This document shows, one piece after another, positions 5,292-5,932 of a stretch of DNA of 64,000 bases (positions are counted from its first letter, which is position 1; the number at the start of each line of letters is the position of its first letter). A program made the translations under genes and the position numbers. Where the stretch lies: positions 1 through 64,000 of the forward strand of contig JAKACD010000005.1 of NCBI GenBank assembly GCA_021821785.1, given 5' to 3'. The notes below the pieces were generated by a model. That model was not told the origin of the DNA, did not search any database, and worked only from the letters and a program-made list of their open reading frames with translations. This DNA comes from Thermoplasmata archaeon (GTDB lineage Archaea; Thermoplasmatota; Thermoplasmata; Lutacidiplasmatales; UBA184).

Positions 5292-5653
5292 GAACCCTCC
5301 GAGCGACGAGCCAAGTGAGGCGGCGTAGGCCGCTGCGGCGACCGGGACCGCGAGGTAGATCGCCGCCGACCGCCAGGCGGGGGGGAACTTCAGGGGGGAC
5401 CGGACCCGATGCGCGTCGCCCGCGGCCTCCTCGCTCCGGGGGTCAGTGACCCCCGTCGTCGCTCCCGGACCCTCGACCCGGCGGACCGTAACTCCCCCTC
5501 GCCATGCGTTCGGTCGGGCATGGACCGGGGTGCGACGGCGCTGGCATATTTGTGGAGTATGGTGGAATCGGGCGCTCCCTCAGCCAGAGGAGGCCCGCGC
5601 CGCCGCTCCGCCCGCGGCAACGTTTATCAACGGCCCGACGCTGGCCGACGCGT

Positions 5654-5760
5654 AGCCCCGTAGTGTAGTGGCCAATCATGCGAGACTCTGGATCTCGCGA
5701 CGCAGGTTCGAACGCCGCGGGTACACGCGGATCCCACGGCCGGAACTCCTGCCGGGGCTA
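5654..5760 (+). tRNA. tRNA-Gln(CTG) with 34-nt intron in the T loop (5713..5746)
   Basis: Acceptor AGCCCCG/CGGGGCT-A; anticodon arm CGAGA-CTCTGGA-TCTCG. T-stem GCAGG pairs with CCTGC only if 5713-5746 is removed. BHB: TTCG/CGGA central helix, bulges AAC and ACT, distal GCCG/CGGC. Confidence 0.9.
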
Positions 5761-5787: not shown

Positions 5788-5932
5788 GCGGGGGTGCTCC
5801 AGCTCGGCCAAACCGTTCTCCGAGAACGGGGCCACCGAGGCAGGGCTTAGGACCCTGTTGCCTAGGGCATGCGCCGGTTCAAAGGGCCGATCGGCGGTCG
5901 CCGCCGACGGCCGGGAACTCCGGCCCCCCGCA
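5788..5932 (+). tRNA. tRNA-Leu(TAG) with two BHB introns (5812..5835 and 5884..5918)
   Basis: Acceptor GCGGGGG/CCCCCGC-A; anticodon arm CAGGG-CTTAGGA-CCCTG; variable arm TGCC-TAG-GGCA; T-stem GCCGG/CCGGC. First BHB is CTC-GGCC-AAA-CCGTTCT..AGAACGG-GGCC-ACC-GAG. Confidence 0.87.

Follow-up and report, generated by a model that had tools for sequence, protein, structure and literature searches.

Bulge-helix-bulge introns in the D-loop and T-loop of the tRNA-Leu(UAG) gene of a soil archaeon from the Thermoplasmata

tRNA genes with more than one bulge-helix-bulge (BHB) intron, located at non-canonical sites in genomes rich in such introns, are known from the Thermoproteales (Sugahara 2008 and Fujishima 2010, cited in PMC4033280 and PMC8450103), and intron gain by transposition was proposed there. 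A burst of non-canonical introns, with multiple introns per gene, was also found in an uncultured soil lineage, the wetland-soil Asgard archaea, in which it affects 92–95% of the tRNA genes (PMC11291895). Efficient cutting of relaxed introns has been reported as restricted to (αβ)2 and ε2 splicing endonucleases and tied to their CSL or ASL loops, of which the CSL comprises 15–18 residues and the ASL is shorter, with a lysine near the active site (PMC6379350, PMC12397907). The loop-less two-repeat enzyme type, represented by the α′2 endonucleases of A. fulgidus and T. acidophilum (2GJW, 2OHC), is reported as narrow (PMC6379350). The EndA of M. kandleri, likewise without CSL or ASL, cuts relaxed junctions weakly and is described as having constrained broad specificity (PMC6379350). 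The loop-bearing Korarchaeum has been named the sole α2 archaeon with non-canonical introns (PMC4033280).

The tRNA-Leu(UAG) gene described here, found in a 64,000-nt stretch of archaeal DNA (the window), belongs to the known class of multi-intron archaeal tRNAs with non-canonical BHB introns. In contrast to the Thermoproteales, its host is a member of the Thermoplasmata with a fused two-repeat endonuclease that lacks the crenarchaeal loop, and its introns are concentrated at position 59/60. The host shares the intron burst and the soil habitat with the Asgard archaea, from which it differs in phylum, in the proportion of affected genes (16 of the 38 found, 14 of them non-canonically) and in the preference for 59/60. 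The nearest named relatives of its endonuclease are mostly metagenome-assembled genomes from soil and acidic environments within the Lutacidiplasmatales/UBA184 clade, including Ca. Lutacidiplasma silvani and UBA184, the best being 83% identical; the host is a soil archaeon of this clade. An origin in the Thermoproteota was rejected on the same evidence, since these closest named relatives are Thermoplasmata genomes. The gene is laid out as follows.

5788–5932, + strand: tRNA-Leu(UAG) gene with two introns and an 86-nt mature product (removal of both inserts in ARAGORN; 30/30 aligned loci, 29 from relatives).
5788–5811, + strand: exon 1, acceptor 5′ strand and D-arm to A21 (near-invariant in 30 loci).
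5812–5835, + strand: intron 1, 24 nt, D-loop position 21/22, strict BHB (covariation; missing in genus g17).
5836–5883, + strand: exon 2, remainder of the D-arm, anticodon arm (TAG), variable arm and T-arm to A59 (near-invariant in 30 loci).
5884–5918, + strand: intron 2, 35 nt, T-loop position 59/60, BHB with a 3-bp central helix and an A·G mismatch (covariation and T-arm covariance model; missing in g17, g19 and g20).
5919–5932, + strand: exon 3, U60, T-stem 3′ strand, acceptor 3′ strand and discriminator A (invariant in 30 loci).

The unspliced gene is 145 nt long, and without both inserts (that in the D-loop, 5812–5835, being ACCGTTCTCCGAGAACGGGGCCAC, 24 nt) it becomes an 86-nt class II tRNA with anticodon UAG. 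ARAGORN called tRNA-Leu(tag) for the doubly spliced sequence only and made no call for the unspliced or either half-spliced form; applied to the unprocessed window, both ARAGORN and Rfam reported only tRNA-Ala(CGC) and tRNA-Leu(CAA) and missed Leu(UAG). The initial annotation had proposed a single tRNA-Leu(UAG) with two BHB introns at non-canonical sites, which becomes a normal tRNA of 86 nt once both inserts are removed, and this is confirmed by ARAGORN on the sequence spliced in silico as well as by the covariation and orthologs discussed below. An intact second Leu(UAG) gene, which would have cast doubt on the locus, was found neither in the host genome (91% complete; Rfam and custom-model searches) nor in a relative rated 100% complete. 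CTA codons are rare yet used, with 6 occurrences among the 2734 codons of seven genes in the window.

The D junction consists of an outer helix CTC 5803–5805/GAG 5837–5839, a central helix GGCC 5806–5809/GGCC 5830–5833, 3-nt bulges AAA 5810–5812 and ACC 5834–5836, and a 7-bp inner hairpin 5813–5819/5823–5829; a cut two nucleotides into each bulge would free the 24 nt inserted at position 21/22. It is a strict BHB with the helices, bulges and hairpin originally claimed for it, so that the textbook description holds for this junction; the T junction is a relaxed one. In the latter the outer helix is the T-stem GCCGG/CCGGC, the bulges are AAG and ACT (3 nt each), the inner helix is GGCCG/CGGCC, and the central helix, in which U54–C56 face intron bases of the form GRR, comprises U54-A, U55-G and C56-G followed by a mismatch of A57 with G. 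The three base pairs are formed in every aligned locus, with the A·G mismatch opposite A57. The pairing of this junction was absent from the initial annotation. An alternative T junction with the central helix GUUC/GAAC (G53–C56) was discarded; it would break the T-stem, and GAAC is not conserved in the relatives.

Directly upstream of the Leu gene lies a second interrupted tRNA gene.

5654–5760, + strand: tRNA-Gln(CUG) with one T-loop intron and a 73-nt mature product, upstream of Leu (30 aligned loci; ARAGORN).
5713–5746, + strand: T-loop 59/60 intron of tRNA-Gln(CUG), 34 nt, 4-bp central helix UUCG/CGGA (RNAalifold consensus of 30 loci; missing in g21).
5622–5631, + strand: likely TATA box about 30 nt 5′ of tRNA-Gln (T/A-rich from −31 to −28 in 30 aligned loci).

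RNAalifold recovered the BHB of the Gln T-loop unaided from the 30 loci, as a strict junction with UUCG/CGRR. The intron-bearing gene had been overlooked by the first reading of the sequence, by ARAGORN and by Rfam at the gathering threshold. The TATA-like element reads TTTATC in most aligned loci, and the spacer between the two genes is 27 nt in 27 of the 30. As such a box precedes Gln while none is visible in the 27-nt spacer of the aligned loci, Gln and Leu are probably co-transcribed.

The tRNA inventory of the 91%-complete host genome, compiled from Rfam and custom-model searches, comprises 38 genes. Introns occur in 16 of them, and 14 carry a total of 15 non-canonical introns, 12 of which are at 59/60: in Leu-UAG, Gln-CUG, Asn-GUU, Arg-UCU, Arg-UCG and Gly-UCC, and in Ser-GCU, Ser-GGA, Ser-CGA, Ala-GGC, Asp-GUC and His-GUG. 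Canonical anticodon-loop introns are present in Tyr and Leu-UAA, and D-loop introns in three tRNAs, namely Leu-UAG and the following two.

G000:C36:39200-39600 (L020): D-loop intron of the initiator tRNA-Met.
G000:C53:400-800 (L082): D-loop intron of tRNA-Arg(GCG).

A covariance model of T-arm plus intron retrieved exactly the 12 tRNAs with 59/60 introns at E <1e-4, eleven of which were in its training set while His-GUG was outside it. An automated BHB and ARAGORN scan of the tRNA regions also recovered the T-loop introns; it is permissive, placing spurious junctions in intact tRNAs, and was used as support only. Isoacceptors of Ile, Pro and Trp as well as Lys-UUU, Glu-CUC and Thr-UGU were not found by the Rfam and custom-model searches of this genome, and may lie outside the assembly or be more heavily interrupted. 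An identical tRNA-Ser(UGA) is located at the end of contig C51 (L011) and at the start of C36 (L023) of G000, probably reflecting an assembly overlap.

When base 57 was compared by hand with the intron base facing it in the 12 tRNAs, G57 was opposite C in 5/5 cases, and A57 was opposite G, A or U in 7/7; such a perfect split would arise by chance with a probability of 1/792. The orthologous tRNA-Asp genes of two genera (g17, L256 and L262, versus g1, L313 and L086) differ in the same way, one genus combining A57 with intron G and the other G57 with intron C, as would be expected if the two bases lie opposite each other in the junction. In the remaining central pairs Asn is exceptional: the 3′ side CCCAAA of the 59/60 insert in Asn(GUU) (L019, G000:C92, second tRNA, minus strand) cannot pair with UUCG in the usual way.

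It is very probable that the sole Leu(UAG) gene would be matured by excision of its two BHB introns by the fused endonuclease, followed by joining of the exons by RtcB. From the sequence we infer transcription, cutting and joining, and the order of these steps. The precursor, probably shared with tRNA-Gln(CUG), would fold two BHB junctions; a single α′2-like endonuclease would cut two nucleotides into each 3-nt bulge to free introns of 24 and 35 nt; and RtcB would ligate the three exons to an ordinary 86-nt tRNA. At the T junction, the universal T-loop motif UUCR would serve as one strand of the central helix, with the intron bringing the other, NGRR. With one strand already provided by UUCR, the repeated use of a single design at 59/60 across many tRNAs of the family would be accounted for. 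Furthermore, since U54–C56 would be paired inside the junction, the D-loop/T-loop elbow would form only after splicing.

Both enzyme genes are present in the host. There is one gene for RtcB, and the endonuclease is a protein of 364 aa with two fused PF01974 repeats in one frame, in which the Tyr-His-Lys triad (Y302, H310, K341) is found in the second repeat only and is invariant among the aligned relatives. The monomer model has a pLDDT of 89. Its best match in sequence and fold is the M. kandleri fusion construct (5X89), and the A. fulgidus α′2 enzyme is also among the best; the Foldseek E-values to the A. fulgidus and T. acidophilum α′2 enzymes (2GJW, 2OHC) are 5e-23 and 8e-17. The M. kandleri enzyme is an (αβ)2 with separate subunits, the crystal being that of a fusion. 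Like the two α′2 enzymes, the host protein is encoded by one gene, has two fused repeats with the second catalytic and lacks CSL and ASL, but it is longer than theirs (289–305 aa), and its genome, in contrast to the narrow specificity described for that type, is full of D- and T-loop introns. The three units (αN-α-βC) of the ε2 enzyme of ARMAN are not seen; there are two repeats, and superposition on 4FZ2 is poor (rmsd 10). Determination of the endonuclease type, suggested at the outset as a check, thus gave a single fused two-repeat α′2-like protein with a catalytic second repeat.

The catalytic repeat can be aligned from end to end with M. jannaschii EndA, with gaps of 1–2 residues only, and as this alignment is almost gap-free it leaves no room for a crenarchaeal or ARMAN loop; no CSL/ASL-type insertion was found in the host enzyme relative to M. 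jannaschii EndA or in the aligned relatives. In Korarchaeum cryptofilum a homodimeric endonuclease likewise occurs together with non-canonical tRNA introns, but that enzyme is reported to carry the specific loop (PMC4033280), which the host enzyme lacks. Efficient cutting of the T junction would therefore not be guaranteed by precedent, given the A·G mismatch and an enzyme type reported as narrow. Judged from sequence, the Lutacidiplasmatales clade does not fit a simple rule linking the loop to broad specificity.

One alternative accepts both introns as real and assigns the cutting of the T-loop intron to a broad-specificity activity, whether through an unrecognised determinant in the same endonuclease or through an unfound subunit. 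It would refine the explanation preferred here and is compatible with it. Although the A57·G mismatch of the Leu T junction, the intron burst in a family without a known CSL or ASL loop and the published loop rule (PMC6379350, PMC12397907) all point in this direction, a complete 4-bp central helix, which a narrow enzyme should cut, is present in the D junction and in the T junctions of Gln, His, Asp, Gly and Arg-UCG, homodimers are reported to act on some bulge-helix-loop substrates (PMC6379350, PMC8707768), and no second PF01974 gene was found in the host genome, so that we consider it rather unlikely. In a wider and tentative proposal, possible though short of probable, the family would tolerate many introns without CSL or ASL, its fused two-repeat endonuclease having either gained or kept broad specificity by another route, and the 59/60 introns would have spread between tRNAs through the half-junction offered by UUCR.

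Two BHB introns at exactly the positions given above are also what the comparison within the genus indicates. A DNA search gave matches in 59 of 61 sampled genomes of the genus, weak or partial in a few, and the Leu alignment was built from 30 retrieved loci, one being that of the window and 29 coming from relatives. In all 30 the Gln and Leu genes are in tandem and contain all three introns; the exons are near-invariant, while the introns diverge strongly and yet keep the BHB pairing by compensatory changes. In the two BHB structures, 93.1% of the cells are paired, compared with 85.4% after shuffling and 31–59% after a slide by 1–3 columns. Cells changed on both sides number 67 (21.1 in shuffled alignments), and the covariation score is 0.239 (0.105 shuffled), with 0/500 shuffles as high in either case. 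The central helix of the D junction is 100% paired across the loci, with compensatory changes in the inner helix, and RNAalifold recovered the D-loop BHB from the Leu alignment with no structure supplied. It is clear that the BHB pairing in the Leu locus is not due to chance.

The same Gln-Leu pair is present in sister genera of the family. In g17 (three genomes) Leu(UAG) is intronless, is called as it stands by Rfam and ARAGORN, and equals the predicted spliced product arm for arm, with an identical T-arm GCCGGTTCAAATCCGGC; the gene of g19 and g20 (three genomes) contains the D intron alone, and that of g18 (two genomes) and g1 contains both. In g21 tRNA-Gln(CUG) is intronless. As orthologs carry none, one or both, the introns were gained or lost at different times within the family.

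Intron boundaries displaced by at least one nucleotide might also be considered; at 5883–5917, for instance, the T-loop would read TTCAACT, which is likewise compatible with the consensus. Such a shift is very improbable, and the 5883–5917 boundary is ruled out by conservation and by the intronless orthologs: all 30 loci have A at 5883 and T at 5919, the flanking exon bases, whereas the intron-end bases 5884 and 5918 vary, which fixes the boundaries, and the intronless orthologs read TTCAAAT, their D-arms being as long as predicted. The limits 5812–5835 and 5884–5918 and the mature T-loop TTCAAAT, as given in the initial annotation, are therefore exact, in agreement with both intronless and one-intron orthologs. 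Decay or disruption into a pseudogene, with the inserts as damage and CUA read by another tRNA, might be suspected because the locus escapes standard gene finders, but this is extremely improbable and was rejected given the near-invariant exons and compensatory intron changes in 30 loci, the intronless orthologs equal to the spliced product, and the lack of any other Leu(UAG) in the host or the 100%-rated relative. Leu(UAG) is thus taken to be a real locus and, by comparative evidence, a functional one.

The spread of T-loop introns was surveyed with the T-arm covariance model in 150 members of the class with a completeness of 80% or more. Each of the 24 family genomes contains 5–16 such introns and the other 126 contain 0–6, about half having none; counts outside the genus are lower bounds because the model was trained on the host's genus. 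Isolated 59/60 introns in Pro(CGG), Pro(GGG) and Met occur in other Thermoplasmata families (L238, L242, L259, L263, L264), in isotypes for which no 59/60 interruption was seen in the host genome, and are possibly independent gains. No report on non-canonical tRNA introns in Thermoplasmata was found in a search of mainly freely accessible literature, and the paper on the Lutacidiplasmatales makes no mention of introns (PMC9287336); the lineage, the 59/60 burst and the mismatch with a loop-less enzyme appear to be undescribed in the literature searched.

About one third of the host tRNA genes are missed or misfolded by standard finders, so that genomes of this kind can look incomplete. The orthologs, which at a single syntenic position carry zero, one or two introns, form a natural series that documents stepwise intron turnover within the family. 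In the literature, non-canonical introns are explained by co-evolution with loop-bearing endonucleases, whereas this Thermoplasmata family with its 5–16 T-loop introns lacks the loop, and the loop rule is now directly testable with one recombinant protein.
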